From the NCBI RefSeq assembly GCF_902506555.1, contig NZ_LR732707.1, positions 2,813,290-2,877,289 on the forward strand: a stretch of 64,000 nucleotides of DNA, given 5' to 3'. Numbering within the stretch: the stretch's first letter is position 1; each line of letters opens with the position of its first letter. The translations under genes were made by a program, and so were the position numbers. Positions 5,648-19,516 of the stretch are shown in pieces. Under the pieces are notes generated by a model, which was not told the DNA's origin, did no database searches, and saw only the letters and a program-made list of their open reading frames with translations. This DNA comes from Sphingorhabdus sp. 109 (GTDB lineage Bacteria; Pseudomonadota; Alphaproteobacteria; Sphingomonadales; Sphingomonadaceae).

Positions 5648-5722
5648 CGGACGGTCAATCCAGTAGAATGGTCGCGGAACTTTCTACGACCGGATGATCT
5701 GGAAGTTGAAGAGAGCGAGAGG

Positions 5723-6130
5723 TCATGGCTGGTCCGTCTCGACAAGGGGTGGCCGCCAAGTCCACAGGTAGAGGATCAGGCCGGTGATGATGAACATCGC
5801 ACAGCCGGAGAGAACCCAGGCATTGGCATACCAATAGTCACCCCAGGTAAATTGGCCAGCCATGATCTTTTTCCAGCCGTTGAAATGCTGCATTCCGGCG
5901 ACAACCAGCCCAAGTAGTGCCAATGTTGATGCTATCCACCGGTTGAGCCAGTGCATGGGGTTGGCCAGTAAAAGCAGGCCAAGCAGTCCGATGACCGTCC
6001 TTTGTGCGCGGCAATAGGGGCAGATGTAAACCCAGTCGGCCCATTCGGTAAACCATGCGAATAGCGAGATAAATATCGCCAGCAATGCGATATGGATGCG
6101 ATATTTCAACAGAAGTTCAAAGCTGGGCAT
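5723..6130 (-). CDS. Short DsbB-like membrane protein with a single CxxC
   Basis: A 135-residue protein with four predicted membrane segments. After the first helix it has C37-P-Y-C40 followed four residues later by R44, matching the DsbB pattern CxxCxxxR, in which the Arg contacts quinone. DsbB proteins normally carry a second cysteine pair in the second periplasmic loop; here that region (about residues 80-105) has none, and the only other cysteine is C110 inside the last helix. It could be a reduced DsbB/BdbC relative or a redox protein with another partner. It stands alone between the SDR-DoxX gene and prs. Confidence 0.6.
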   Translation of the reverse strand: MPSFELLLKYRIHIALLAIFISLFAWFTEWADWVYICPYCRAQRTVIGLLGLLLLANPMHWLNRWIASTLALLGLVVAGMQHFNGWKKIMAGQFTWGDYWYANAWVLSGCAMFIITGLILYLWTWRPPLVETDQP

Positions 6131-6165
6131 TGTCCTCTCCCGAAATCGGAAAAATGCTCTCCCGA

Positions 6166-7101
6166 CTAGTCAAAAAGGCTGCTCACCGAGCTTTCGTCCG
6201 CAATTCGCTTGATCGCCTCTCCCAACAGAGGGGCGATCGGCAGGATGCGAATCCGGTTCGAATCGAGCGCGGATTGCGGCGCGCGGATGGTATCGGTGAT
6301 GATCAGCTTGCGCAGCGAGGAGTTGTTGACCCGTTCGACCGCCTTGCCGGAAAGAACGCCGTGCGTGATATAGGCCGCAACATCGGTCGCGCCTGCCGCG
6401 ATCAGGGCATCGGCGGCGTTGCAGAGAGTGCCGGCGCTGTCTGCAATATCGTCGATCATGACGCAGAAACGACCTTCCACATCACCGATTATATTCATCA
6501 CTTCGGACACGCCAGCCCGTTCGCGGCGCTTGTCGACGATGGCGAGAGGGGCGTTGTCGAGCCGTTTCGCCAGCGCCCTGGCGCGCACCACGCCGCCAAC
6601 GTCGGGGGAAACAACCATGATATCCTTGTCGGCGTGACGCGACTTGATGTCTTCGCTGATCACCGGGGCGCCGTAGAGATTGTCGGTCGGAATATCGAAA
6701 AAACCCTGGATCTGGCCGGCATGAAGGTCGACGGTCAGGACCCGGTCGGCACCGGCTTCGGTGATCAGATTGGCAACCAGCTTGGCCGAAATCGGCGTGC
6801 GGGGTCCCGGCTTCCGGTCCTGCCGCGCGTAGCCGAAATAGGGGATGACCGCGGTGATGCGCTTGGCTGACGCGCGGCGCAAGGCATCGATGCTGATCAG
6901 CAATTCCATCAGATTGTCATTGGCGGGATGGCTGGTCGACTGGACTACAAACACGTCCTCGCCCCGAACATTTTCATGAATTTCGATAAAGATTTCATCG
7001 TCGGCAAAGCGCTTGACGCTGGCGTCGGTGAGCGGAATATCCAGATATGCTGCAATTTCCGTTGCAAGGGGCAGATTGCTGTTGCCCGACATGAGTTTCA
7101 T
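6166..7101 (-). CDS. prs: Ribose-phosphate pyrophosphokinase
   Basis: Makes PRPP from ribose 5-phosphate and ATP, feeding purine, pyrimidine, histidine, tryptophan and NAD synthesis. The 311-residue class I enzyme shows the ATP-binding YARQDRK and the phosphate-binding [15 protein letters not shown]. The PRPP-binding loop appears as [11 protein letters not shown], a mild variant of the usual DDxxDTxGT. Length and motifs are as expected. It is followed 35 nt later by the DsbB-like gene. Confidence 0.97.
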
Positions 7102-7204
7102 AATTGTGTTCCCCGATCCAGCGGCCCGCCAGAATCTCCAACGGAACCTCGTGATGATTTTGCGACCCTGTTAAACAGGTGCTAGCTGAATCAAAAGAGG
7201 CTTT

Positions 7205-7969
7205 TCATTTAATCCATCCTATTTGTTTGAGAGCGGCCACCCGGTTGCGGGCAACCGGAATTTCCAGACTATTGGTGAGCAGCAACCGCCAGTTGCGATC
7301 CTGCCGCTTTGCCGACGCCACGGCTTCGGCCGCAACCCACCAGCTGCGGTGGACCTGATGGCCCTCGATGTGTTCCATCTCGCGAATTGCGTCGCCCAAT
7401 CGCATTAACAGCATCTCGCTGCGCTCTGTTGCGTGGACGCGGACATAATGGTCTTCTACGCCGAGCGCGAGTATCGTGTCGGGAAAGCCCTGCGGCAGCC
7501 GGTTGTACAGGGCTGGCAGTGGCAGGGTATGATCAGGCCCTTCTCCGTCACCCTGATCGCCGGTCGACCGATACTCTCGCGGAAACAAGTTTCGCATGAC
7601 CAGAGAAATGCCCAGGCCGATACCGATAACCTGAAGATAGAGCAGGGCAAAATCGTCACTGAACATCAGTCCCTGCCAGCGAAAACCGTTGATCATGAAA
7701 CCGATCATCATCGATAGCGGTAAGCCTGCGACGAGCAGTGCCATGGTCATGGCACCCCAGTAAGGAACAGTGGTCGCTTCGTGCAGCCAGATAGCGGCGA
7801 AGCTGATCGGCCGGAATATCAAATAACCAACGAGGATGAATATTACCCAATAGGCCAATCGTAGCGCAAACGGCATCGCATAAGTGCCGAAAGGACCGAG
7901 CAGGCCCATGATCAGGCCGATGCCGCTGATAACGAGCAACTCGATCGCCAGTTGTTTTTGCCAAGTCAT
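7205..7969 (-). CDS. Membrane-anchored LytTR-domain transcription regulator
   Basis: A 254-residue regulator with four membrane segments in the first 140 residues and a C-terminal LytTR DNA-binding domain (about 160-253) containing EDHYVRVH, the hallmark VHRSWWV and a final VARNRVAALKQIGWI. There is no receiver domain, so it probably senses a membrane or ligand signal directly. The longer frame to 8032 starts with TTG and lacks a better ribosome-binding site, so the ATG at 7969 (MTWQKQLA) was preferred. It is divergent from the DUF2306 gene with a 164-nt gap, which makes that gene a likely target. Confidence 0.82.
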   Translation of the reverse strand: MTWQKQLAIELLVISGIGLIMGLLGPFGTYAMPFALRLAYWVIFILVGYLIFRPISFAAIWLHEATTVPYWGAMTMALLVAGLPLSMMIGFMINGFRWQGLMFSDDFALLYLQVIGIGLGISLVMRNLFPREYRSTGDQGDGEGPDHTLPLPALYNRLPQGFPDTILALGVEDHYVRVHATERSEMLLMRLGDAIREMEHIEGHQVHRSWWVAAEAVASAKRQDRNWRLLLTNSLEIPVARNRVAALKQIGWIK

Positions 7970-8133
7970 GGTCACGAGGGTTTCTTTAGCTACCCGTTCG
8001 CGTTTCGCCAACGGGCAAGTTCCGGTTTTCAAGCCATTTCACGAAGAAATATGGCGGTAGCCGTATGGGCAATAGCGACAAGCAGATAAAAGGTCCATGT
8101 TCTTGAAATCAAACGATAACAAGGAATGCCTAT

Positions 8134-8664
8134 ATGTCAGATAACAGCAGCATCGCTAAAGGATATTCCGTACCGGGGATGATCATGATCGCTGGGGCAA
8201 CCATATTGCTCACGTTGCTGCTGATGGCATTGACCAATTTCGGATCCGGCAACGCCGCAGCGGCCGCCAGCGTCTCTGACAGGTTGACGCTGCCGGTCAT
8301 CCTGCATCTGGCCACTGTAATTCCGGCGCTGCCCCTAGGCGCCTACATTCTGCTCAGACGCAAGGGGGATCGTCTACACAAGATCCTGGGCCGGACGTGG
8401 GGTGGCTTGATGATGACAACTGCGATCACCAGCTTCTGGCTGGGCCGCAGCGATGGTTCGGGCTTGTTCGGAACACATCTCGGGTTCATCCATATATTTG
8501 CGGTGGTTACTCTGGTCTCGATTCCGCTCGGCGTCTGGCAGGCGCGGATCGGCAATATCAAGGAACATTATCGAGCCATGCAGGGGCCCTATATCGGCCT
8601 GATCATCGCGGGAATTTTTTCGTTCATTCCGGACCGCATTCTCGGCAATCTCGTTTTTGGATAA
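8134..8664 (+). CDS. DUF2306-family membrane protein
   Basis: A 176-residue integral membrane protein with four or five helices. It matches the DUF2306 layout: an HLATVIPALPLGAY helix, RRKGDRLHKILGRTW, then FIHIFAVVTLVSIPLG and a final KEHYRAMQGPYIGLIIAGIFSF. Conserved histidines at helix ends are typical of the family, whose function is unknown. It is transcribed away from the LytTR regulator and sits 40 nt before nadE. Confidence 0.75.
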   Translation: MSDNSSIAKGYSVPGMIMIAGATILLTLLLMALTNFGSGNAAAAASVSDRLTLPVILHLATVIPALPLGAYILLRRKGDRLHKILGRTWGGLMMTTAITSFWLGRSDGSGLFGTHLGFIHIFAVVTLVSIPLGVWQARIGNIKEHYRAMQGPYIGLIIAGIFSFIPDRILGNLVFG

Positions 8665-8704
8665 ATCATTTGCCGATCATGCCGCCCCTTTCTATCAGGG
8701 CCCG

Positions 8705-10360
8705 ATGACCGACAAGCTTATCATCACCATGGCGCAACTGACTCAGAGTGTCGGCGATCTGCGCGGCAATGCCGATGCGATGATTGCGGCGCACGGCAGC
8801 AAGCCGGATAGCGATCTGATTGTCTTTCCCGAATTGCAGCTGATCGGCTATCCGCCGGAAGATCTGGTGCTGAAGCCGGCGGTCTGGGAGCGGGCGGAGG
8901 CGGAACTCAACCGGCTGGCCGCGGCGACTGCGGGGCCGGGACCGGCGATGCTGGTCGGATCGGTGTTCCGCGAGGATGACAGGCTCTACAATGGCATCGC
9001 CCTGCTCGAAGGCGGGCATGTCAGGGACATCCGCTACAAGGTCGAATTGCCGAATTACGGCACATTTGATGAAAAGCGGCTCTTCGCCTCCGGCCCGCTG
9101 CCGGAACCTATTCAATTCAAAGGCTGCAGGATCGGATTGCCGATCTGCGAGGATGTCTGGTTTCCGACCGTGTGCGAGCATCTCAAGGCGCAGGGTGCCG
9201 AGCTGTTTATTTCCGTGCACGGCAGTCCGTACGAGATCGAGAAGGACGACAAGCGTCTGGGACAGGTGGCGACGAAGCGGGTACGGGAAACGGCTATACC
9301 GCTGTTGTTCCTGAACCGGGTCGGCGGACAGGACGAGATTGTCTTCGATGGTGCCAGTTTCGTGCTCAATGGCGATGCGAGCGTGATGCACCAGTTGCCG
9401 GACTGGGACGAAGCGATCGTCGATACCCACTGGTCGCGGGAAGACGGCGAATGGACCTGTGCGCCGGGAGATATCCATCAACTGGATGATCATCCGGCCG
9501 ATATCTACAACGCGATGATCGTCGGCTTGCGCGACTATGTGAACCGGAACCGGTTTCCGGGCGTGTTGCTCGGACTGTCGGGCGGGATCGACAGCGCCCT
9601 GTCGGCTGCGGTAGCCGTCGATGCCCTGGGCGCGGACCGGGTCTGGAATGTCATGATGCCCTCGCGCTTCACCTCGCAGGAAAGCCTGGATGACGCGGCG
9701 GGTTGTGCCGAAATGCTGGGTACCAGGCTGGACACCATTCCGATCAACCCGGCGGTTGAAGGCTTTGATGCGATGCTCGAGGACAGTTTCGCCGACAGCA
9801 ATGTCGATATTACCGAAGAAAACATCCAGTCGCGGATCCGCGGCGTGACGCTGATGGCACTGTCGAACAAGTTCGGCCATATGCTGCTGACCACCGGCAA
9901 CAAGAGCGAGATGAGCGTCGGCTATGCCACCATCTATGGCGATATGGCGGGTGGCTATTCGGTGCTCAAGGACGCCTACAAGCTGACCGTCTTCAAACTG
10001 TCCTCCTGGCGCAACCGCAACAAGCCGAGCCTCGGTCTCGGTCCCGACGGGCCGGTGATGCCGGAAACGGTCATCACCAAACCGCCAAGCGCGGAATTGC
10101 GGGAAGACCAGAAAGACAGCGACAGTCTGCCGGATTACGAGATTCTCGATCCGCTGCTGCACGGGCTGATCGAGGAAGAATTATCGGTCAACGACATGGT
10201 CGCGCGCGGGTTTGACCGCGAAACGGTGGTGCGGATCGAGCGGCTGCTCTATATCGCCGAATATAAGCGCCGCCAGGCTCCTCCGGGCGTCAAGCTGGGC
10301 ACCAGAAATTTCGGCCGTGACCGGCGCTATCCGATCACCAACGCATTCAGGACCGTATGA
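8705..10360 (+). CDS. nadE: Glutamine-dependent NAD+ synthetase
   Basis: Converts nicotinate adenine dinucleotide to NAD+, using ammonia released from glutamine. The 551-residue product has an N-terminal nitrilase-fold amidotransferase with the triad Glu43 (FPELQLIGYPPED), a Lys in the KVELPNYGTFDEKRLF region and a Cys in LPICEDVW. The C-terminal synthetase domain has the ATP loop SGGIDS at about 292-297. The ATG at 8705 (MTDKLIIT) was chosen over a 16-codon upstream extension because it matches family length. Its stop overlaps the gltX start (ATGA). Confidence 0.96.
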   Translation: MTDKLIITMAQLTQSVGDLRGNADAMIAAHGSKPDSDLIVFPELQLIGYPPEDLVLKPAVWERAEAELNRLAAATAGPGPAMLVGSVFREDDRLYNGIALLEGGHVRDIRYKVELPNYGTFDEKRLFASGPLPEPIQFKGCRIGLPICEDVWFPTVCEHLKAQGAELFISVHGSPYEIEKDDKRLGQVATKRVRETAIPLLFLNRVGGQDEIVFDGASFVLNGDASVMHQLPDWDEAIVDTHWSREDGEWTCAPGDIHQLDDHPADIYNAMIVGLRDYVNRNRFPGVLLGLSGGIDSALSAAVAVDALGADRVWNVMMPSRFTSQESLDDAAGCAEMLGTRLDTIPINPAVEGFDAMLEDSFADSNVDITEENIQSRIRGVTLMALSNKFGHMLLTTGNKSEMSVGYATIYGDMAGGYSVLKDAYKLTVFKLSSWRNRNKPSLGLGPDGPVMPETVITKPPSAELREDQKDSDSLPDYEILDPLLHGLIEEELSVNDMVARGFDRETVVRIERLLYIAEYKRRQAPPGVKLGTRNFGRDRRYPITNAFRTV

Positions 10361-11694
10361 CCATAAAAACCCGCTTTGCCCCGTCTCCCACGGGCCACCT
10401 CCATGTCGGCAATATCCGGACGGCGCTGCACAACTGGATGTTCGCGAAGAAACAGGGCGGAACCTTTCTGTTGCGGCTCGACGATACCGATGGCGAACGA
10501 TCGAAAGAGGAATATGTCGAGGCGATCCGTGCCGATCTGGCATGGCTCGGTCTGACCGCTGACGAAGAGCAGCGTCAGTCTGCCCGCTTTGACCGTTATG
10601 AAGAGCATCTGGCGAAGCTGAAGGCCGATGGCCGGGTCTATCCGGCCTATGAGACGGCGCAGGAACTGGACCTGAAGCGCAAGATCCAGCTCGGCCGGGG
10701 CAAGCCGCCGATCTATGACCGGGCCGCGCTCGACCTGACGCCAGACCAGATTGCCGCCTTTGAAGCCGAGGGGCGCAAGCCGCACTGGCGCTTCAAGCTG
10801 GATCACGAAAATCCGATCGTCTGGTCCGACCTGATAAGGGGTGATCAGAATTTCGATCCGGCCCTGTTGTCCGATCCGGTCATCCTGCGCGAGGATGGCA
10901 GCTGGCTCTATATGCTGCCCTCGGCGATAGACGATATCGAGATGGAGATCAGCCACGTTGTGCGTGGCGAGGATCATGTTGCCAACACCGCGGTGCAGAT
11001 ACAGATGTTTGAAGCACTTGGCGCAAAACCCCCGGAATTCGCCCATGAAGCCCTGCTGGTCGGGACCGAAGGCAAGCTGTCCAAGCGGCTCGGCTCGCTC
11101 GGCGTCAGCGGCTTTCGCGAGAAGCATATCGAGCCACAAGCGATCGTTGCCTTGCTCGCCCGTATCGGGACCAGCGATCCGGTGGAACCGATTGCCGACG
11201 TCGAGCAGCTGATCGCGACCTTCGACTTTGCCCGCTTTGGCCGGGCACCGGCGCGGTTTGACGACGAGGAACTGGTGCAGCTCAACCAGAAGATTGTTCA
11301 TCTGCTGGACTATGCGGATGTGAAGGACCGGCTGCCGGAGTCCATGGATGCTGACGGCTGGGCGGTGATCCGGCCGAACCTGCATGATATGGGCGATGTC
11401 GACAAGTGGTGGCAGGTGGTGACCGGTCCAGTTGCGCCGCCAGAATTTTCGCCGGAAGACCGTGAATTTCTGTCGGTCGCCCATAGAGAGCTGGAAGAAC
11501 TGGAAGCATCTTCCGGCTTGTGGAAAGAGCTGACCGGCACGCTAAAGGAAGCGACGGGCCGCAAGGGCAAGCCCCTGTTCATGCCGCTGCGGCAAGCTCT
11601 GACGGGACTGGATCATGGCCCCGACATGAATGTTTTGCTGCCTCTGATTGGCCGCGAAGAAGCGCTAACAAGACTATCAATATCAATAAGTTAA
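10357..11694 (+). CDS. gltX: Glutamyl-tRNA synthetase, second type
   Basis: Class I aminoacyl-tRNA synthetase that loads glutamate on tRNA-Glu or, in organisms that use transamidation, on tRNA-Gln. The 445-residue enzyme shows the HIGH-type motif HVGN (about 15-18) and KLSKR (240-244). No zinc-binding cysteine cluster is visible. The short length and the GVSGFREKHIEPQAI segment resemble the second GltX commonly found in alphaproteobacteria beside a longer one. It is coupled to nadE by a 4-nt overlap. Assignment as GltX is firm; preference for tRNA-Gln is inference. Confidence 0.93.
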   Translation: MTIKTRFAPSPTGHLHVGNIRTALHNWMFAKKQGGTFLLRLDDTDGERSKEEYVEAIRADLAWLGLTADEEQRQSARFDRYEEHLAKLKADGRVYPAYETAQELDLKRKIQLGRGKPPIYDRAALDLTPDQIAAFEAEGRKPHWRFKLDHENPIVWSDLIRGDQNFDPALLSDPVILREDGSWLYMLPSAIDDIEMEISHVVRGEDHVANTAVQIQMFEALGAKPPEFAHEALLVGTEGKLSKRLGSLGVSGFREKHIEPQAIVALLARIGTSDPVEPIADVEQLIATFDFARFGRAPARFDDEELVQLNQKIVHLLDYADVKDRLPESMDADGWAVIRPNLHDMGDVDKWWQVVTGPVAPPEFSPEDREFLSVAHRELEELEASSGLWKELTGTLKEATGRKGKPLFMPLRQALTGLDHGPDMNVLLPLIGREEALTRLSISIS

Positions 11695-11745
11695 CATGAT
11701 TTTCTATAGCTGGATTTGCGGCTGCAACCACCCCTGATTGCATTT

Positions 11746-11760
11746 TACTATGTAATAGTA
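11746..11760. promoter_or_regulatory. Perfect palindrome upstream of tonB-like gene
   Basis: TACTAT-GTA-ATAGTA is a perfect 6-bp inverted repeat with a 3-base spacer in an AT-rich stretch about 90 bases before the tonB-like ATG. A TATAAC that could serve as a -10 overlaps its right edge, and a TTGCAT lies 15 bases before that, so the repeat would cover a promoter. It is a candidate operator; no known regulator consensus was matched. Confidence 0.35.
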
Positions 11761-11846
11761 TAACATTACAATCGGCGCTGCGGTGTGATAGTCGAAAAGG
11801 CACGGAGCCGCTCCGCCATGTTGAGGATGGTTGAGAGGACAGTATC

Positions 11847-12500
11847 ATGAGCTATGTATCTGTATATGAAAATAAAATTCCGCGTTCGAAAGGCCTGATA
11901 ATGACCGGCGCCGTGCATGCGGCGATCGTCGCGGCGGTGATCGCGATGCCGGCGATCGTGGTGCCGGATAGATTCGAAGGCACGATCCTGGCTATCCCCG
12001 AGAGAGTGCAGCCGACTCCAGAACCGGTGGTCGAAGAAGTGAAGCCAGACGTCAGAACAGCGGCGCCTGTACGGAAAACCGCACCAGAACCCCGGATAAC
12101 CGACTTGCCGCCGATTCCAAAAGATCAATATGCAACGACCAGTCTGGCCAGCGCCTCGGTAGGAGAAGGCATGGTAATACCCCTGGAAACCATCACCATC
12201 AAACCCGATCCGGTGATTGTCGGCGCACGGCTTAACACTCGCTATGCGGACCGGTTCCAGCCTGCCTATCCGCCGGGCCAGTTGCGGCTGGAGCGGGAAG
12301 GCGAAGTCAGCGTCCGGGTACTGGTCGGGACGGACGGCCGGGTCAAGCAAATCAAACTGATCGATGCGCCGCATGAGGATTTCTGGGAAGCTACGCGCAG
12401 ACAGGCGCTGAGCAAATGGCGCTTCACCCCGGAAACCAGAGATGGCAAGCCTTTTGAAAGCTGGATAACCCTGAAAGTCCGCTTTGAAATCAACAGTTGA
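11847..12500 (+). CDS. TonB-family energy transducer protein
   Basis: Periplasm-spanning protein expected to pass inner-membrane proton-motive force to TonB-dependent outer-membrane receptors. The 217-residue product has a single N-terminal membrane anchor (about 18-42), a proline-rich linker (about 45-115, VQPTPEPVVEEVKPD and similar) and a C-terminal TonB domain (about 135-215) with GEVSVRVLVGTDGRV, the WEATRRQALSKWRFTPETRDGK pattern and WITLKVRFEI. A good ribosome-binding site, GAGAGGA, precedes the ATG. No ExbB/ExbD genes are adjacent. Confidence 0.88.
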   Translation: MSYVSVYENKIPRSKGLIMTGAVHAAIVAAVIAMPAIVVPDRFEGTILAIPERVQPTPEPVVEEVKPDVRTAAPVRKTAPEPRITDLPPIPKDQYATTSLASASVGEGMVIPLETITIKPDPVIVGARLNTRYADRFQPAYPPGQLRLEREGEVSVRVLVGTDGRVKQIKLIDAPHEDFWEATRRQALSKWRFTPETRDGKPFESWITLKVRFEINS

Positions 12501-12590
12501 TCTACGGGCCAGCCGGTCGACCAGCGCTTTCCCGCGGCAAATTTGCGGGAAGGGCTGGTCATCCGGCCGTTGCCGCACTATCTGAACGCC

Positions 12591-13004
12591 ATGGGAATGT
12601 TGAAAGATGTATCCGTTACCGGCGGTTTTGGTGATCTGGTTGCCGTTTTTCGCCAGAGTGAACCGGGGGAGCGTCTGCTTCCCGCGGTGATGGCGATTGC
12701 CTGCACCTCGTTCATACTGTTCCTTTTCTGGCTCGATCCCAAGGTAAATACCTACACTTATGTACCGCAGGAGGTCGTTTATGTCGAAAACTGGACACAT
12801 GATCGCACCGACGAGGAAATTCTGCAGGACCGCTGGCAGGTCCAGTGCCTGAAGGACAAGCTGGCAGCCAAACGGCGCGAATCAATGAAGGAGCTGGGCC
12901 GGATGTCCGGCATGGATGTCGAGGCGATCGAGGCAGATATCGAAGCCGAACGTCTGGCGCGAGGTGAGGTTGAAGTCGATCGCCCGGCCGGTCTGCAATG
13001 CTGA
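12591..13004 (+). CDS. Small single-pass membrane protein, function unknown
   Basis: A 137-residue protein with one membrane helix (around MAIACTSFILFLFWL), then YVPQEVVYVENW and a charged C-terminal tail rich in Glu, Arg and Lys that looks helical. No family was recognised. The frame opens with TTG at 12543 but ATG codons at 12591 and 12597 are more likely; the start is uncertain because no clear ribosome-binding site is visible. Its stop overlaps the ribD start by 7 nt, so it is probably cotranslated with riboflavin genes. Confidence 0.65.
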   Translation: MGMLKDVSVTGGFGDLVAVFRQSEPGERLLPAVMAIACTSFILFLFWLDPKVNTYTYVPQEVVYVENWTHDRTDEEILQDRWQVQCLKDKLAAKRRESMKELGRMSGMDVEAIEADIEAERLARGEVEVDRPAGLQC

Positions 13005-13978
13005 CCCCCCCCGGCGACGCACATTTCATGGCTGTTGCACTGGCTCTGTCGGAGCGGGGACGTGGCCGGACCGGTGCCAATCCCAATGTCGGCTGCGTCA
13101 TCGTGAAAAAGGGCGTCGTCGTAGGTCGCGGCTGGACCCAGCAGGGTGGTCGTCCGCATGCCGAGGCGATGGCGCTGGCCGAAGCCGGAACCGCCGCCCG
13201 GGGCGCGGATATCTTTGTCACGATGGAACCCTGTGCGCATGAAAGTACTCGCGGTCCGACCTGCAGCAATGTGATCATCGAGGCCAGACCGAAACGGGTG
13301 ATCGTCGCCACCCTCGACGCCGACGAGCGGACGAGACGCCGCGGCATTGACCGGCTTGGTGAAGCGGGCATTCCAGTATCGGTTGGTATTAGAGAACCGG
13401 AAGCGCGCCGCGCGATGGCGGGATTCCTGTGCCGGGTCGAGAATGGTCGTCCCTTTGTCACGCTCAAGCTTGCGATGTCACTAGACGGCTGCATCGCGAT
13501 GGCCGACGGCTCCAGCCAGTGGATCACTGGCGATCAGGCACGGGCGCATGCCCATCTTGAACGAGCGCGCAGCGATGCGATCCTGGTCGGCGCCGGCACC
13601 GCCAGAGCGGACCGGCCCGGGCTGGATGTCCGGCTTGACGGGCTGGCCGATCGATCGCCGCAACCGGTCGTTCTTGGCAATGACAAGGATAAGCCGGAGC
13701 ACTGGCTACAGCTGAACGAGCCGGCCGCGATTGCCGGTCTGGTCGATATCAACTGGCTGCTGGTCGAGGGCGGCGCACAAACCGCCACCTCCTTTCTTGC
13801 GGCGGGGCTTGTCGACCGGCTGCTGCTCTATCGAGCCCCGATCATCATCGGTGGCGGCCTGCCCTGCATCGGCGATATCGGGCTGGAAAAACTGGGTGAG
13901 GCGCATGGCCAGTGGCGGCGCACCGACCGGCGCGAACTCGGGCAGGATATGCTTGAGATATATGATCGCGCCGCCTAG
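12998..13978 (+). CDS. ribD: Bifunctional diaminohydroxyphosphoribosylaminopyrimidine deaminase / reductase
   Basis: Carries out the deamination and side-chain reduction that turn the GTP cyclohydrolase II product into the ribitylaminopyrimidine precursor of riboflavin. The 326-residue protein has an N-terminal cytidine-deaminase-like zinc domain with H54-A-E56 and C79/C89 (in MEPCAHESTRGPTC), then a reductase domain starting at VTLKLAMSLDGCIA with SQWITGDQARAHAH and a final LLVEGGAQTATSF. It overlaps the upstream small membrane protein and is followed 46 nt later by ribE. Confidence 0.96.
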   Translation: MLTPPGDAHFMAVALALSERGRGRTGANPNVGCVIVKKGVVVGRGWTQQGGRPHAEAMALAEAGTAARGADIFVTMEPCAHESTRGPTCSNVIIEARPKRVIVATLDADERTRRRGIDRLGEAGIPVSVGIREPEARRAMAGFLCRVENGRPFVTLKLAMSLDGCIAMADGSSQWITGDQARAHAHLERARSDAILVGAGTARADRPGLDVRLDGLADRSPQPVVLGNDKDKPEHWLQLNEPAAIAGLVDINWLLVEGGAQTATSFLAAGLVDRLLLYRAPIIIGGGLPCIGDIGLEKLGEAHGQWRRTDRRELGQDMLEIYDRAA

Positions 13979-14024
13979 GTTCCGCCGGGTTTGTCGCAAA
14001 TAGACACAGCAAATAGGATCGCGC

Positions 14025-14633
14025 ATGTTCACAGGCATTGTTTCAGACATCGGTACCATTGAATCGGTCGACCAGCGCGGGGATCTGCGCGTGGTGGTCC
14101 GGTGCGGCTATGCTATGGACGATGTCGATATGGGGGCCTCGATCGCCTGTTCCGGTGTCTGCCTGACGGTGGTTGACAAGGGGCCGGACTGGTTCGCCGT
14201 CGACGTATCGGGCGAGACCCTTTCGTGCACCGCGCAGGGCCAGTTTGCCGCCGGACGGAGACTCAATCTGGAACGGGCGCTGAAAGTCGGAGACGAACTG
14301 GGCGGGCATATTGTGACCGGCCATGTCGACGGCGTCGGTACCGTCTCCTCGAGCAACGCCGCCGGCGATTCGCGGGAAGTCGTGATCCGGGTGTCGAAAG
14401 ATCTGGCGCCGTTCATCGCCGCCAAGGGATCGATCACGGTCGACGGCGTCTCGCTGACCGTTAACGCGGTTGCCGACGATGATGAGGGCGCATTGTTCAC
14501 GCTCAATATCATTCCCCACACCGCACAGGTGACAACGCTCGGCGAGCTCGAGCCCGGCCGCGCGGTTAATCTGGAGATTGATATATTGGCCCGCTATCTG
14601 GCGAGAATGGAAAAAGTCCGGTCGCGGGGTTGA
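14025..14633 (+). CDS. ribE: Riboflavin synthase alpha chain
   Basis: Dismutates two molecules of 6,7-dimethyl-8-ribityllumazine to riboflavin. The 202-residue protein is two lumazine-binding repeats: MFTGIVSDIGTIESV opens the first, and GHIVTGHVDGVGTV opens the second at about residue 96. It lies directly after ribD in the same direction. ribBA and ribH, which often follow in sphingomonads, are not here; the next gene, eipA, is convergent. Confidence 0.96.
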   Translation: MFTGIVSDIGTIESVDQRGDLRVVVRCGYAMDDVDMGASIACSGVCLTVVDKGPDWFAVDVSGETLSCTAQGQFAAGRRLNLERALKVGDELGGHIVTGHVDGVGTVSSSNAAGDSREVVIRVSKDLAPFIAAKGSITVDGVSLTVNAVADDDEGALFTLNIIPHTAQVTTLGELEPGRAVNLEIDILARYLARMEKVRSRG

Positions 14634-14725
14634 GCAAAATCGCAACCCGCCCGTGACGGTCGCGGCCCCGCGGGAAGGGGATGGCGTGCCGGGCCGTATC
14701 GCTCAGGCTGTTGGTGGTGAGCCGG

Positions 14726-15508
14726 TCAGAACGGCAGCCATTTCTGCTTCTTGCTGAATTTCATATAGCCGACATTGGCGCCAAGCCGCAGGCCCGCGCC
14801 GAGTCGCACCGGAATCAGAACCTTGTCACCGCTACGCAAGTAGCTGACGTGGAAGCCGCCGATGAAATAGGCCGCGCCTTCGCCCGCCGGGAAGCGCTGA
14901 TAAAGTTCTTCGGTGTCATAGAGATTATAGACCAGCACGAAGGTGTTTGCGGCATTGCCGCCAACATCAAAGCCGATGGACGGTCCGGTCCAGTAGACCG
15001 GGCGTTCGCCCTCGACCTTGTGATAAAGCTTGCCCGAACCGTAGCGCAATCCGACGACAAAAGCGCCGCTGGCTTCCCGTCCCGCAATATAGGCATTGGG
15101 CCGGCCCTGCTTCTTGAGAATATCCTCGATCACCTCGGCGAGGCCTTTTGCGCCCTTGCCGAACACGCCTTCGGCCGCGCCGATCAGGTCATCGTCCTGA
15201 TAGGTGTTGCTGTCCTCGATCGCTGCACCGATGCTATCGCCGCCTTGAGCGCCGGTTGCAGCCGAACTGGAGGGGGCGATAATGTCGGCATTGAGGTCGC
15301 TATCCAGTGGCGCATCCTCCACGGTGGCCGACCGGGAGCTGTCGGGTTCAAAATTTCCGTCATAATCGGGTGCGGCCAGATCGGCATCGATCACGTCATT
15401 CGGATCGACAGTTTCGACCTGCGCAGATGCGGGCGACAGCGCCGGTGCACCGGCGAGAGCCAATATGGCAAATAGACCCAATGATTTCTTCAAGCATAAC
15501 CGTAACAT
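14726..15508 (-). CDS. eipA: DUF1134 family envelope protein (EipA-like)
   Basis: Secreted or periplasmic protein of the DUF1134 family, linked to envelope integrity in Brucella. The 260-residue product has a signal peptide ending around PALSPASA, a low-complexity acidic segment (about 33-105), and the conserved domain from DDLIGAAEGVFGKGAKGLAE to a C-terminal GLRLGANVGYMKFSKKQ. The ATG at 15508 was chosen because GGAAGGAG lies directly upstream and the signal peptide starts there. It is convergent with ribE. Family assignment is firm, function is by analogy. Confidence 0.88.
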   Translation of the reverse strand: MLRLCLKKSLGLFAILALAGAPALSPASAQVETVDPNDVIDADLAAPDYDGNFEPDSSRSATVEDAPLDSDLNADIIAPSSSAATGAQGGDSIGAAIEDSNTYQDDDLIGAAEGVFGKGAKGLAEVIEDILKKQGRPNAYIAGREASGAFVVGLRYGSGKLYHKVEGERPVYWTGPSIGFDVGGNAANTFVLVYNLYDTEELYQRFPAGEGAAYFIGGFHVSYLRSGDKVLIPVRLGAGLRLGANVGYMKFSKKQKWLPF

Positions 15509-15732
15509 GGGCAAACTCCTTCCGGTTACCAGCCGAATACAGGCTCTCGGCCGTCGACTATGACCACGCAATGAACGGACGACGAACGGACTCGATTCTG
15601 CGGCGATCCGAGTCCCCCCAGCCCTGCTTTCACCGGTTCCGGATTTTTTCCGGCAGGAATCCAAAGGGGCCAATTTTCCCGTTGCAGCCAGCGCTATCCG
15701 CCGTTATAGCGCTTTTTCAAGCCAAACTGCGT

Positions 15733-15822
15733 GGACACGTGGGTGAGCGGCTGAAACCACCTCCTTGCTAAGGAGACAAGCCTTTACGGGCTTCGAGGGT
15801 TCGAATCCCTCCGTGTCCTCCA
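15733..15822 (+). tRNA. tRNA-Ser(GCT)
   Basis: A 90-base class II tRNA. The acceptor stem GGACACG (15733-15739) pairs with CGTGTCC (15812-15818); the loop TTGCTAA holds anticodon GCT at 15767-15769; a long variable arm with stem AAGCC/GGCTT marks serine; the T arm is GAGGG-TTCGAAT-CCCTC; CCA is encoded. The outermost anticodon-stem pair is C-A, and the discriminator base is T rather than the usual G of serine tRNAs. It marks the border between core genes and the accessory region. Confidence 0.93.
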
Positions 15823-16226
15823 CTCCCTTGTTCCTATCATTGCTGAAAATGCCAATTCCTTAGCTTAGGCCTTTGGAAATGGCGACGTTCGTGTCACGCG
15901 CCGTCGCTTGCCGTTCCCTGCTAGCCCGACCACGGTGAGGGTAATAATATGTGAAAAAGAAATATGGCCGGGCTGACAGCGACGGCAGCACGTCGAGGAT
16001 TAATTCCGACATCGCGGGGGCTGCTGGCTCCAGTTGCAGGCCAGATGTGTGGGGGCGGGAGAACCAACCCCACGGCACAGGAGAGGTTTGCCGCAACCAA
16101 TAGGCGCGCCTAGATAGGGGGGAATCTAAATTTTCCAGCTGTCAATCCGCAGCGATAACGTTGTTACGGATTCTTTTTCGCGCGCCGGGCAGTGGTCTAG
16201 GGGCAACACATTAACCAGCGGCGGGT
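15823..16226. other. Gene-free interval after tRNA-Ser
   Basis: About 400 bases with no credible gene. A 78-codon minus-strand frame (15860-16096) has a composition unlike any protein and no good start signal. No direct repeat of the tRNA 3' end and no integrase fragment were seen. Confidence 0.5.
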
Positions 16227-16379
16227 TTAGCTCGGCCCATAACTGGAGGTCTCAGACGGGGCGTTGTAATATTTTCCCTCAGTTCCATCGCGCATATCTG
16301 AAAAAACAATCAGCGCGGGTTTTTCATAGGTCAGTTTGTTGTCTTTGACGATTTGATCTTTCCCGTCTGAATTTTTCAT
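16227..16379 (-). CDS. Candidate lasso-peptide precursor (orphan)
   Basis: A 50-residue peptide starting MKNSDGKD, preceded by a good ribosome-binding site (AAGGAAGC) 3-8 bases before the ATG. Residues 18-33 match the lasso leader pattern Y-x2-P-x-L-x3-G-x5-T with exact spacing (YEKPALIVFSDMRDGT; Ser replaces Gly). Thr33 is then the penultimate leader residue and cleavage after Glu34 would free GKYYNAPSETSSYGPS. That core begins with Gly and has Glu at position 9, fitting a nine-residue macrolactam ring with a seven-residue tail. No B (protease/RRE), C (cyclase) or transporter gene is in the window. A longer GTG start at 16409 is less likely. Confidence 0.6.
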   Translation of the reverse strand: MKNSDGKDQIVKDNKLTYEKPALIVFSDMRDGTEGKYYNAPSETSSYGPS

Positions 16380-16713
16380 TTTGCTTCCTTGTTTTACAAT
16401 GGCCAGCACGGCGGCAAGATCATGTGATCTGCGACCATGTACCGAAGGCCGACATTTAATCGGGGCAAGATTGAAAGCAAGCGAACTCCGTGTTCCGCAC
16501 TCGCCAATTCCCGACCATCGCTGACTTCTTCGCCCGCTTTTTGTCAGTTGGTGTGGAAGCGCTTCGTGCTGCTTGCTTGCCGCTCGGTCAACCGGTGCCG
16601 ATGAAGCGCAATGGCATCAAGACCGTTTAACGCGTGCAGCGGAACCGCGCATTATTTCTTCTTGCCTCGCTGATAAATTATTATAATGAAACATAAAAAG
16701 GGGGAAATATTCA
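16380..16713. other. Intergenic region between divergent lasso-like gene and secreted-protein gene
   Basis: About 330 bases. It must contain the promoters of both divergent genes; a good sigma70-type candidate is visible at 16659-16687. A short open plus-strand stretch ending at the TAA near 16627 (reading VPMKRNGIKTV at its end) has no start signal and no recognisable family, and may be a decayed gene fragment. Confidence 0.4.
16659..16687 (+). promoter_or_regulatory. Candidate sigma70 promoter for the 16714 gene
   Basis: TTCTTG (16659-16664), a 17-base spacer and a perfect TATAAT (16682-16687), placed 26 bases before the GTG start of the downstream gene in a locally AT-rich stretch. Confidence 0.45.
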
Positions 16714-17562
16714 GTGAAAATGAAACTTGTGGTGCCCATTCTGGCGCTCCTAACTGCCGTGCCTGCCATGGCAGAGACCTTGAGCAACGATACGGTGCTG
16801 TCGATGATTGGCCTCGGCCTGGGCGATGAAGCCATTGTCGCGAAAATCCGCACTTCGGATTCCGAATATGACCTGTCGATCGATTCCATGGTGAGTCTGA
16901 AAAACCAGGGTGTTTCGAGCGCCGTTATCGCGGCGATGATCGAGGCGCAGGAAAGCAACAAGGCGAGTGCGCCGGCGATGGCGCCGGATTCGCCAGATCC
17001 CATGGTCCCGCATCCGGCGGGCGTGTACCTGCTGGACGAGACCGGGGAAGCCGCCAGAATGGTGCGGATCGATTCTACCATTTCCAATCAGGCCAAAACC
17101 GGTGGTATATTGGGCTACGCAATTACCGGCGGCCTCGCGTCGATGAGCGTTAAGGCGTCCATTCCCAATGAGACGGCTCGTGCGGGAACAGATTCACAGA
17201 CGCCTGTTTTCTATATGTTTTTTGACGAATCCAATCCGGACACTGTGGTTCAGGCCAGTAGCTGGCAATCCGGTTCGGCCCAGACAATCAACTCTCCCAA
17301 CGAGTTCACGCTGATCAAGCTCAAACAGAAAAAGGGACGCCGTGAAGCGCGGGTCGGCAGCATGAATATCGGTGGTACGAAAGTCGGTGTGATGGACAAG
17401 GATCAGCACCAGTTTGATTATGAGATTGTCCGGCCCGGCGTCTACAAGGTTGTCGCCCAAGAAGTTCTCGAGCAGGGTGAATATGGTTTTATCTACGCCT
17501 TGAACGGTGGCGCCGCGGGAGGCGCGCTCACGGCACGTATTTTTGATTTCACCATTTACTAG
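16714..17562 (+). CDS. Secreted protein of unknown function
   Basis: A 282-residue protein with a clear signal peptide (MKMKLVVPILALLTAVPAMA). Residues about 22-80 form a small helical motif: LSNDTVLSMIGLGLGDEAIVAKI, then LKNQGVSSAVIAAMIEA, a pattern seen at the N-terminus of several exported proteins. The rest (about 95-282) is predicted beta-rich, with Gly-rich turns and a final GALTARIFDFTIY. The start is GTG; GGGGGAAA lies 6-7 bases upstream of it, a better spacing than to the ATG two codons later. No function is recognised. It precedes the polysaccharide export genes by 350 bases but nothing links them directly. Confidence 0.75.
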   Translation: MKMKLVVPILALLTAVPAMAETLSNDTVLSMIGLGLGDEAIVAKIRTSDSEYDLSIDSMVSLKNQGVSSAVIAAMIEAQESNKASAPAMAPDSPDPMVPHPAGVYLLDETGEAARMVRIDSTISNQAKTGGILGYAITGGLASMSVKASIPNETARAGTDSQTPVFYMFFDESNPDTVVQASSWQSGSAQTINSPNEFTLIKLKQKKGRREARVGSMNIGGTKVGVMDKDQHQFDYEIVRPGVYKVVAQEVLEQGEYGFIYALNGGAAGGALTARIFDFTIY

Positions 17563-17913
17563 GCCCGGGGCTGCATGGGTGGATGCTTTTGATCTGGCGG
17601 TGGCCATGGTAGCGCCACCGCCGCCTGAGCTAAGGCACGCCGCGCCTGCGCTCGCTTTCAAGGCTGAAGCGGCCAAACCGGCGTGATCGAGCAGCAGGCC
17701 GTTCGCATGAATAGTGCCGGTCCCTGCATTCGTCCGGTTCCTTCTTTTGTGGAGCGCTGCCGGAAGTTTGCGCGTCATACCGTGCTGATGGCCTGATGGC
17801 TTGGTTTCAAGCGGGCCGGCCACGCGATGCGACATGAATTGCATTGACTATCCGTTCCCGCCCGATCATCAATTCCGCACGCCATCGCGATTGCAGTTCA
17901 CAATATTTGGGCC
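17563..17913. other. Intergenic region before polysaccharide block
   Basis: About 350 bases without a credible gene; the long minus-strand frame here continues antisense through the 16714 gene and is a shadow. It holds one strong hairpin (17596-17622) and presumably the promoter of the plus-strand export block. Confidence 0.5.
17596..17622 (+). terminator. Strong GC hairpin downstream of the 16714 gene
   Basis: GGCGGTGGC (17596-17604) and GCCACCGCC (17614-17622) form a perfect 9-bp stem with a 9-base loop, about 34 bases after the stop codon. No T tract follows, so it may protect the mRNA 3' end or act with Rho rather than as a classic intrinsic terminator. Confidence 0.4.
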
Positions 17914-19353
17914 ATGATGAATAACAGAAAAAGCAGGAATATAGCTCCGAAAGGCGGGATTGCCGACCGCGCTTTGCTGCTGGTGCTGGGGGCTTTTATC
18001 ACTGCTATCTGCCTGTTGGGTGGCAGCGTTCGCGGCGATGCGGTGCAGCTGATAGTGCTGCGGCCGGCCGCTTGCCTGGTGGCCGGCTATGCTTTGTATC
18101 AGCTTGGAGCGAGTCGCGCGGGCGGACAAAAGGTTCAGGGGCTTGCGCCGCTTTACGCGGGGCTGGCGGTGCTGGCCGTCTGGATGATCATCCAGCTCAT
18201 ACCCTTGCCCTATCAAATATGGTCCGAATTGCCGGGCCGGGCGCTGATCGCCAAGCTTGATGCGGCCGGCGGACAGAGGGGCCTGTCGCGTCCGCTGTCC
18301 TTTTCGCCTTCGCGAACGGCCAATTCGCTGGCCGCGCTGATCGTCCCGCTAGCGGCCCTTCTGTTATTTCATCGCTATCCGAACCGGCGGAAAAAGGACT
18401 TTCTCGCGCTGATCATTGTCATTGCTCTCGGCAATTCGCTGCTGGGTATCCTGCAGATCCTCGGTCCCAGCGGCGGTCCGCTCTATTTCTATGAATTCAC
18501 CAATGCAACAGAGGCCGTCGGTTTCTTCGCCAATCGCAATCACTCCAGCGTATTCTCGGCAGTGGCGCTGCTGATCATCAGCTATATCTATTCGCAAAAC
18601 TGGCGCTTTTTCCGCCTCGACAGGAAATATACCAACATGGTCCTGGTCACCATCTATCTGCTGATTTTCCTGTCGTCGATCCTGAACGGGTCGCGTGCCG
18701 GATTTCTATGTGGCGGCATAGCGCTTTTCCTCGGTCTGGTCCTGTATAATCTCAGGCCCGCGGATGCCAAGGGACCCGGCATGAAGCAGAGCCGGAAAGT
18801 CGCATCGATCATCGGTTCGGTTGCCATTGTGGCGTTCAGCCTGACGCTGATTCTGCTGTTCTTTGCCTCGGATCGCGTCCCGGCTGTCACCCGTCTGATC
18901 GAAGCTGACAATATGTCGAACCTGCGGACGAGCGCGATGCCGACGCTGCTGGAAATGATCGGCACCTATTGGCCGTTCGGCACCGGCTTTGGCACGTTCG
19001 ACAAGGCCTATTTCATTCATGAACCGAACGAATTGCTGATGCCCAGCTATTTCAATCAGGCGCATAATGACTGGCTGCAGATGATCATCGAAGGGGGCGC
19101 GCCGGTAGCGGTGCTGGCGATTGCCGGAATCCTCTTCTATTTTGCTGCTGTTCTGAAACTGTTCGTCCTGACCGCAAGTAATCGCGCGCATCTGTTTTTC
19201 TGGTTCGGCATCATGACCATATTGGGGGTCGCCAGTCTGGTCGACTATCCCCTGCGAACGCCATTATTCAGTGCGGTCGCTGTCTGGATCGTGGCTCTGC
19301 TGCTTGCAGCGCGGCGCAATCCGGAAGCTCTCGGCTTCATCAGGGATCCATGA
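17914..19353 (+). CDS. O-antigen ligase / Wzy-like polymerase membrane protein
   Basis: Multi-pass membrane protein of the O-antigen ligase superfamily, which polymerises or ligates lipid-linked glycan units on the periplasmic face. The 479-residue product has about eleven to twelve hydrophobic segments. The Wzy_C-type region around LNGSRAGFLCGGIALFLGL is followed by a large periplasmic loop with FGTGFGTFDKAYF and the motif NQAHNDWLQMIIEGG. It heads the plus-strand export block (Wza, Wzc, envelope protein). A second such protein lies in the minus-strand block at 39525; which acts as polymerase and which as ligase cannot be told from sequence. Confidence 0.87.
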   Translation: MMNNRKSRNIAPKGGIADRALLLVLGAFITAICLLGGSVRGDAVQLIVLRPAACLVAGYALYQLGASRAGGQKVQGLAPLYAGLAVLAVWMIIQLIPLPYQIWSELPGRALIAKLDAAGGQRGLSRPLSFSPSRTANSLAALIVPLAALLLFHRYPNRRKKDFLALIIVIALGNSLLGILQILGPSGGPLYFYEFTNATEAVGFFANRNHSSVFSAVALLIISYIYSQNWRFFRLDRKYTNMVLVTIYLLIFLSSILNGSRAGFLCGGIALFLGLVLYNLRPADAKGPGMKQSRKVASIIGSVAIVAFSLTLILLFFASDRVPAVTRLIEADNMSNLRTSAMPTLLEMIGTYWPFGTGFGTFDKAYFIHEPNELLMPSYFNQAHNDWLQMIIEGGAPVAVLAIAGILFYFAAVLKLFVLTASNRAHLFFWFGIMTILGVASLVDYPLRTPLFSAVAVWIVALLLAARRNPEALGFIRDP

Positions 19354-19365
19354 TCCACCCTCGTT

Positions 19366-19386
19366 TTCGGCCCTTGTCTGGCCGAA
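19366..19386 (+). repeat. Hairpin after the Wzy-like gene
   Basis: TTCGGCC (19366-19372) and GGCCGAA (19380-19386), a perfect 7-bp stem with a 7-base loop, 12 bases after the stop codon. No T tract follows. It could be a weak terminator or an mRNA stability element between the Wzy-like and Wza-like genes. Confidence 0.35.
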
Positions 19387-19516
19387 GAATCCCCCGGTTC
19401 ATTGGCTCCGGAGAACGCAGGTTCATCACCCGTTCGGAAATAGCGATGGATCGAGGTTGCCTAATCGCAAATTGCTGTTTACGGCTGAATTCCGTTGTGT
19501 GGATTAGAGAGTGGAA

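Follow-up and report, generated by a model that had tools for sequence, protein, structure and literature searches.

Dispersed lasso-type precursor genes in Sphingorhabdus, probably matured in trans by a distant enzyme set

How can a bacterium mature a lasso peptide if no maturation gene lies beside the gene of its precursor? In the mining of RiPPs, precursors are usually sought near enzymes, or enzymes near precursors. The locus treated here lies in a window, by which we mean the whole stretch of 64,000 nucleotides that was analysed, C2:2813290-2877289 in its own assembly (Sphingorhabdus sp. 109, G000 hereafter). From the letters of this window an initial annotation had described a 50-residue ORF as a lone, orphan lasso precursor, with a good start codon and ribosome-binding site, a Y-x2-P-x-L leader with a penultimate Thr, and a core with Gly1 and Glu9, and it had seen no protease, RRE or cyclase gene nearby. 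Apart from the loneliness, to which we return, all of this was borne out. The ORF lies exactly at 16227-16379 and on the minus strand, which had been left unnamed, and PF13471, PF05402 and PF00733, searched in G000, find nothing inside the window at E<=0.001. The features of the gene are as follows.

16227..16379, minus strand: apparent lasso-type precursor gene, 50 aa, stop included (ORF reading and profile matches, the window sequence itself being inside the profiles)
16278..16379, minus strand: leader peptide, 34 aa, Y(-17)xxPxL(-12), Thr(-2), Glu(-1) (sequence; positions as in excerpts of PMC10368454)
16230..16277, minus strand: predicted core, 16 aa, GKYYNAPSETSSYGPS, with Gly1, Lys2, Glu9 as predicted ring acceptor and a C-terminal Ser as predicted kinase site (alignment A3)
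16384..16389, minus strand: ribosome-binding site AGGAAG, read from the sequence, 4 nt before the ATG

The translation, MKNSDGKDQIVKDNKLTYEKPALIVFSDMRDGTEGKYYNAPSETSSYGPS, begins at the ATG at 16379 and ends at the TAA at 16229-16227, while a GTG upstream in the same frame would lengthen the ORF to 60 residues. Its leader motif reads Y-E-K-P-A-L, with Pro at -14 and Leu at -12, in agreement with YxxPxL. Is it then more than a chance ORF with a lasso-like motif? A strict lasso regular expression has one match in the window and seven over 400 dinucleotide-shuffled copies of it (0.0175 per window). The pattern by itself is only moderately unlikely and not decisive, and at this rate such matches are to be expected across many windows. 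A second expression matches once in the window and in none of 400 shuffles; it is to be noted that it was built post hoc, after the homologues had been seen. As sole query, the window sequence gives weak matches only (E 0.02-0.5). What supports the reality of the ORF, more than the bare pattern does, are its profile homologues, which repeat its unusual core pattern across three species; lasso enzymes are also encoded in the genome. Against these a chance origin is hardly credible, and the window ORF looks like a genuine lasso-type RiPP precursor, probably a real one.

The homologues were reached from the single sequence via an eight-member profile (A2) and then a 17-member profile (A3). Among 32 genomes of the genus, the single-sequence search gave five weak matches besides those of G000, in G008 and G011, and tandem precursor copies were seen when the loci of the weak matches were read. 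The second locus that it gave in G000 was weak too (E 0.47), and reading showed a clear paralogue with the core GKTFSRTYEGTSAGRGFGVS. A2 recovered members from outside the profile at E 7e-10, 4e-9 and 7e-8, and A3 at E<=0.01 matches in five of the 32 genomes, or in three of the 24 high-quality ones. Counting ringed precursors, there are three in G000, ten in G008 and four in G011, in total 17 in three species. Thus, the supposed orphan has two companions of its kind in its own genome. Two kinds of ORFs were excluded from the 17: one of G016 (a 67% complete draft, without the enzyme set described below), whose core GKNFFNLSRFE... has no acid at 7-9, and a type with a fixed tail found in G000, G008, G011 and G020. 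No NCBIfam model was matched by the four family members tested.

Which positions does this family keep? Lys2 and the C-terminal Ser are found in all 17 cores, and so is a Glu at position 8 or 9 (Glu9 in 11, Glu8 in six). Residue 1 is Gly in 14, Ser in two and Ala in one; leader position -2 is Thr in ten, Ala in three, Val in two and Ser in two; the aromatic residue of the leader motif is Tyr in 16 and Trp in one, and its last position Leu in 16 and Val in one. The proposal of Glu9 as ring acceptor therefore stands for the window copy, but has to be widened to 8 or 9 for the family, and of the three residues expected to be conserved, Glu (8/9) is constant and Gly1 common while Thr-2 is kept in only 10/17. 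Lys2 and the C-terminal Ser, to which the initial annotation had not pointed, rank as the most constant residues of the core.

Where, then, are the enzymes? The initial annotation had proposed to look for B and C genes elsewhere in the genome, and would have given up a lasso precursor if these were missing and Gly1, Glu9 and Thr-2 were not conserved. The residues are largely kept, as described, and the genome does contain a set. One B2 of G000 exceeds a curated cut-off, at C2:3457.8 kb (PF13471, E 3.6e-19; NF033537, 74 bits, cut-off 33). The adjoining B1 has 83.8 bits with NF033536 (cut-off 80), and in the PDB it resembles TbiB1 as well as a second lasso PqqD chaperone. A divergent asparagine-synthetase-like cyclase, C, is at C2:3459.5 kb (PF00733; homology to the C of G011), and the best match of the G011 protein is NF033535, 'lasso isopeptide bond-forming cyclase', at 229.9, below the cut-off of 525. 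In G011 and G008 the set is contiguous and consists of genes for an HPr-kinase-like protein, a sulfotransferase (PF00685), an ATP-grasp protein (PF14397), C, B1 and B2, the Pfam and NCBIfam assignments having been made on the G011 proteins. TonB-system genes are seen by eye on one flank, and B2 is followed by an MFS transporter gene in G008 and G000, assigned from PF07690 in the G008 protein. The ATP-grasp ORF of G000 scores 53.7 with PF14397 (cut-off 31.4). The kinase is narrowly over the PF07475 cut-off of 33.3 (34.0 in G000, 34.3 in G011), with a match mostly restricted to the P-loop region, and far under that of HprK_rel_A (39 vs 200). In G000 it reads LHGNAV...GHSGAGKS...LADD and is 87% identical to the kinases of G008 and G011. 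The pattern His..GxxGxGKS..DD, present in the set kinases of G000 and G011, is described in excerpts of PMC9266682 and PMC8498205 for lasso kinases that act on a C-terminal Ser.

When a 6.2-kb stretch of the set in G011 was used as a DNA query, four of the 32 genus genomes responded, namely G000, G008, G011 and G015, the last (80% complete) with the B1-B2 stretch only. Farther away, a scan of named genomes with B1 led to a locus in a Caldilineaceae MAG at 36% identity, a comparison from which nearer records may be missing. In a plasmid search B1 hit 12 records, all at <60% identity, while the ATP-grasp protein gave no match; two of the B1-matching plasmid records were inspected and contain no clear member of the precursor family. 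Other B2 candidates were set aside: a B2-like fragment of G000 at C2:151698 (23.5 bits, three stops), as noise, and the two B2 loci of G010, which by eye resemble ordinary clusters, with TonB receptors and long peptidase-like ORFs as neighbours.

In G000 the set lies in two pieces. The piece at 3457818-3460418 contains B1 and B2 with the 5' part of C, and that at C2:1-3492 the rest of C with the ATP-grasp, sulfotransferase and kinase genes. Is the cyclase dead in this strain? The split ends of C share 102 nt at 98% identity (C2:1-102 and the stretch ending at a single N), an overlap to be expected if a circular chromosome was cut and another stretch appended, which weakens the idea of a dead gene; the split looks like an assembly artefact at the circular join. 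The single N, in a stretch that is finished in all other respects, is G000:C2:3460421, and the ~104 kb beyond it may be a replicon of its own that the assembler attached.

The usual layout, with the precursor beside B and C, which is a matter of gene order and does not belong to the chemistry, is not what these genomes have. The window copy is ~628 kb from B2. The precursor closest to B2 is at ~96 kb in G000 and at ~43 kb in G008; in G011 the distance is 1.2 Mb on the contig as given (0.87 Mb if circular). Profiles A2 and A3 find no precursor inside the enzyme-set loci, and a regular expression run over four set loci of G000, G008 and G011 (L008, L115, L053 and L054) printed ten matches, all noise by eye. 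Among the 24 high-quality genomes of the genus, ringed precursors occur in three and the enzyme set in the identical three. These carriers form one clade (support 0.986 in a tree built from RibD, RibE and EipA of 30 genus genomes, the other two of the 32 having given no locus), so the co-occurrence has to be counted as one evolutionary event and not as three independent ones. In G008 there is also an accessory tailoring locus flanked by two precursors (L119, G008:C1:1759500-1773500, at 4941-9035), with genes for an Asp/Asn hydroxylase, a P-loop protein, PqqD, a Sulfotransfer_3 protein and a CxxCxxCC protein. It has no B2, the only one of G008 being elsewhere, and no cyclase-like ORF was seen in it; for its two precursors at least, a peptidase and probably also a cyclase would thus have to act in trans. 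Such processing by a distant cluster was one of the alternatives offered initially, and with B1, B2 and a C-like protein ~628 kb from the window gene it is now the best supported. What was observed, namely the sequences, their homology, the co-occurrence and the unlinked layout, is probably explained by a dispersed, multi-copy family of lasso precursors that is matured in trans by one shared, distant enzyme set.

Why this set and not another? G000 has a second lasso-like set (L163, G000:C2:1984000-2003500, at 4785-13867, i.e., C2 ~1991-1998 kb), which encodes a DUF6445 protein, a weakly halogenase/monooxygenase-like ORF, an Asp/Asn hydroxylase, two sulfotransferases, an HprK-like kinase (below cut-off), PqqD, a cyclase-like protein and a family-8 glycosyltransferase. 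With an RRE and a cyclase-like protein of its own it might mature the window precursor in place of the B2-containing set. However, the precursor that lies within it is of a different type (leader WDRPTV, core GGTFDFNSPGDDAWYSS with GGTFDF, no acid at 7-9), and it contains no B2, the only B2 over cut-off being elsewhere; moreover, G011 has family precursors, four of them, with a single B2 and a single PqqD/RRE found by PF05402, that of the B2-containing set. Maturation by the second set is therefore very improbable, and that set may itself borrow the only B2 of G000. It is to be noted that, as G000 contains a second RRE-kinase-sulfotransferase-cyclase set, the partner chosen for the G000 precursors follows the analogy of G011.

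Related sets and precursors occur elsewhere. In G008 a set without B2 (L164, G008:C1:322000-341500, at ~9653-19413) encodes PqqD, a cyclase-like protein, a P-loop kinase-like ORF (a second one by eye), a 2OG-Fe(II) oxygenase, two Asp/Asn hydroxylases, two sulfotransferases and a family-8 glycosyltransferase, and has a precursor-like ORF with the core GGANLRTTDDVAGDNYRAS and Asp9. In a sample of 397 genomes of the family, which does not include G011, A3 at E<=0.001 matches in four (G000, G008, G033 and G092), and B2 is found in 189. The G033 precursor (core GPATFTQEVLIYYTPPS) is ~2 kb from B2 and beside a cyclase-like gene (PF00733, PF13537/GATase_7), with a kinase-like protein that has 19.1 with PF07475, under the cut-off, and is without the motif His and the second Asp; this is a conventional linked cluster. 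The precursor-like ORF of G092, with the core GKPTPIVQAVNTKS, has Lys2 and no acid at 7-9, and adjoins cyclase-like and ABC transporter genes.

How would the shared set work on the dispersed precursors? For the kinase-bearing lasso pathways, excerpts of PMC10368454, PMC9266682 and PMC8498205 state that B1 assists both B2 and phosphorylation, that the substrate of the HPr-like kinases of this lasso subgroup is the linear precursor, in most cases modified at its C-terminal Ser (by BsfK at Ser3), that there are proteobacterial examples, one of them from Sphingobium, and that a penultimate Ile or Val is found in Sphingomonadales. With a similar leader, a variable core, a constant C-terminal Ser and one kinase in the set, the dispersed family fits this phosphorylated-lasso pattern. 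From the sequences we infer a path as follows, in its catalytic steps and their timing as well as in threading, lasso topology, phosphorylation, export, activity and biological role. B1, a PqqD-like RRE, would bind the YEKPxL leader, and the HPr-kinase-like protein would phosphorylate the C-terminal Ser while the precursor is linear. B2 would then cleave after Glu(-1), and C would activate Glu9 (Glu8 in some paralogues) and join it to the amine of residue 1, giving a Gly1-Glu9 macrolactam that is presumably threaded. The sulfotransferase and the ATP-grasp protein might tailor the product further, the latter perhaps at Lys2, and the MFS protein adjoining the set may export it.

The constancy of Lys2 is left unexplained by a plain lasso model. 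Could the ring be another one, a side-chain crosslink between Lys2 and Glu8/9, made in the manner of graspetides by the ATP-grasp protein of the set, instead of an N-terminal lasso ring? Both partners are present in 17/17 cores, Gly1 in 14/17; the set encodes an ATPgrasp_ST protein (PF14397) in G011 and G000; and PF14397 has no match among the ORFs tested of the G033 cluster (two), L163 (six) and L164 (eight), whose precursors are without Lys2. Yet the set has a complete B1-B2-C core, the acceptor spacing of 8-9 fits lasso rings, some known lasso peptides start with Ser1 or Ala1, and we know of no graspetide ligase in the family PF14397. In addition, G092 has Lys2 and no ATP-grasp gene that could be seen by eye, which argues against a simple link between the two. 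We therefore regard the crosslink as unlikely and keep to the N-terminal lasso ring, with an action of the ATP-grasp protein at Lys2 as a weak suggestion from the sequences.

How did the window gene come to its place? The genes that flank it are unrelated: EipA (PF06577) on one side, and on the other an ORF without a Pfam match and an O-antigen-ligase-like protein (PF04932), which by eye belongs to an exopolysaccharide-like locus. A tRNA gene is close by, with the following features.

15733..15822, plus strand: tRNA-Ser (GCT), the precursor lying 404 nt downstream
15809..15827, plus strand: left imperfect direct repeat, 3' end of tRNA-Ser and flank (sequence comparison)
16486..16504, plus strand: right imperfect direct repeat (sequence comparison)
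15828..16504, no strand: 677-bp segment with the precursor, in G000, missing at the G008 site

In G008 the tRNA is immediately followed by the counterpart of window 16486-16637 (83%); a gain in G000 and a loss in G008 are equally compatible with this. A degenerate, integrase-like sequence (by eye) comes after the same tRNA-Ser in G011. Might the window gene thus be a dead remnant of a decayed, tRNA-targeted element, unexpressed or unprocessed? The 677-bp segment between imperfect tRNA-Ser repeats and the integrase-like sequence would agree with that, and so would promoter-like and terminator-like sites, which are no commoner than in shuffles. But no decay is seen in the ORF, its ribosome-binding site and its leader motif, or in Lys2, Glu9 and the C-terminal Ser, and G000 also encodes the enzyme set, so that a remnant is improbable beside a gene that is matured in trans. 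Rfam finds only the tRNA, plus one sub-threshold match.

Three precursor loci, in G000, G008 and G011, share a sirtuin context, and two, in G000 and G008, share a CxxCxxCC-protein context. The closest orthologous pair, G008c/G011b, is identical at 97 of 105 nt in the leader and at 40 of 65 alignment columns in the core, with 126 of 147 aligned positions identical in the upstream 150 nt and 139 of 150 downstream; by Fisher tests the core differs from the leader with p 1.6e-6 and from the downstream flank with p 1e-7. In the other five pairs (three between genomes, two inside G008) divergence is greater and core and leader do not contrast clearly; for two of these pairs the similarity of the aligned core equals or exceeds that of the leader. 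A core that changes faster than its leader is thus seen in only one of the six pairs compared. It might be imagined that the family is a chromosome-wide, evolving lasso library, with mobile or duplicated precursors, fast-changing cores, one promiscuous B1-B2-C-kinase set, and an ATP-grasp protein that installs a new modification or a second crosslink at Lys2, a picture that we find rather doubtful.

Is a layout of this kind known? Precursors of prochlorosins are dispersed, with a conserved leader and a variable core. These peptides of picocyanobacteria (ProcA/ProcM) resemble our case in a large precursor family and a solitary promiscuous enzyme (excerpts of PMC10783134), but they are lanthipeptides with a LanM-type enzyme and other chemistry: the likeness is one of layout alone. 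Caulosegnins of Caulobacter segnis have three precursors with 8- and 9-residue rings and the same enzymes, yet, as far as excerpts of PMC13352647 go, all inside the BGC and not scattered over the chromosome. For citrulassin A an essential part of the lasso pathway is encoded elsewhere in the genome (excerpts of PMC12971885), but there a tailoring enzyme is distant and here the precursors are. The phosphorylated lasso peptides (paeninodin with PadeK, ThcoK, SyanK of Sphingobium yanoikuyae, and pseudomycoidin with PsmK) have B1, B2, C, an HPr-kinase-like K and precursors ending in Ser, and some of their clusters have a sulfotransferase gene, as the set here has. They differ in having the precursor inside the cluster, while here 17 are dispersed and none was found in the set; neither a constant Lys2 nor an ATP-grasp protein is mentioned for them in the excerpts of PMC8498205 and PMC9266682. 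Also known from Sphingomonadales is the BsfA group, whose precursors have Ile or Val at -2 and come from kinase-bearing clusters; position -2 is thus not Thr, as in the two of our 17 with Val, but BsfK modifies Ser3 and BsfA ends in Asp, while the constant Ser here is C-terminal (excerpts of PMC10368454).

No description of lasso precursors dispersed away from their enzymes was found in searches of the open-licence PMC literature. Several precursors in one lasso cluster, a distant tailoring enzyme and the promiscuous prochlorosin enzyme are known already; scattered lasso precursors appear new in so far as they were not found described. A dispersed family could be missed both ways, as a lasso cluster that looks empty and as small ORFs that no family model covers. 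If our explanation is true, lasso enzymes in nature can act on many substrates to which they are not linked, and the 17 cores, with predicted rings of 8 or 9 residues and Gly, Ser or Ala as residue 1, would be a natural test set for cyclase promiscuity, which is a practical question for lasso engineering.

Some smaller observations may be added. Upstream of the precursors, an EcfG pattern occurs in 0/17 regions and a LexA-like one in 1/17; the word GATGCTTA occurs in 4/17, one more than the top 8-mer count of 100 shuffles. A CTTTTCTTCTC-like stretch and GATGCTTA stand upstream of several precursors of the sirtuin locus, and GATGCTTA also before one precursor elsewhere in G008, so a shared control signal is possible (L116 and L123, with the tandem precursors, and L117). 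An EIxLED leader variant is found in three precursors, each adjoining a CxxCxxCC-type protein of 213-235 aa (L114 5055-5993, L120 4033-4982 and L119 8085-9035), assigned through PF03692 in L114 and L119 and through 82% identity in L120. The ORF type with a fixed tail is small, with a KPEL leader-like motif, a near-constant tail that ends in DALLTSLFRAS or ALLASLFRAS and no ring residues; its loci are L063 (G000:C2:2059334), L037 (G011), L168 (G008:C1:3100500-3101500) and L020 of G020, a genome without the enzyme set. In the family sample, lasso-like precursor ORFs near B2 were also seen in L088 (2450-2301) and L094 (2437-2285), whose cores GGTDGDFTDF... and GASTGSAIDA... likewise end in Ser.
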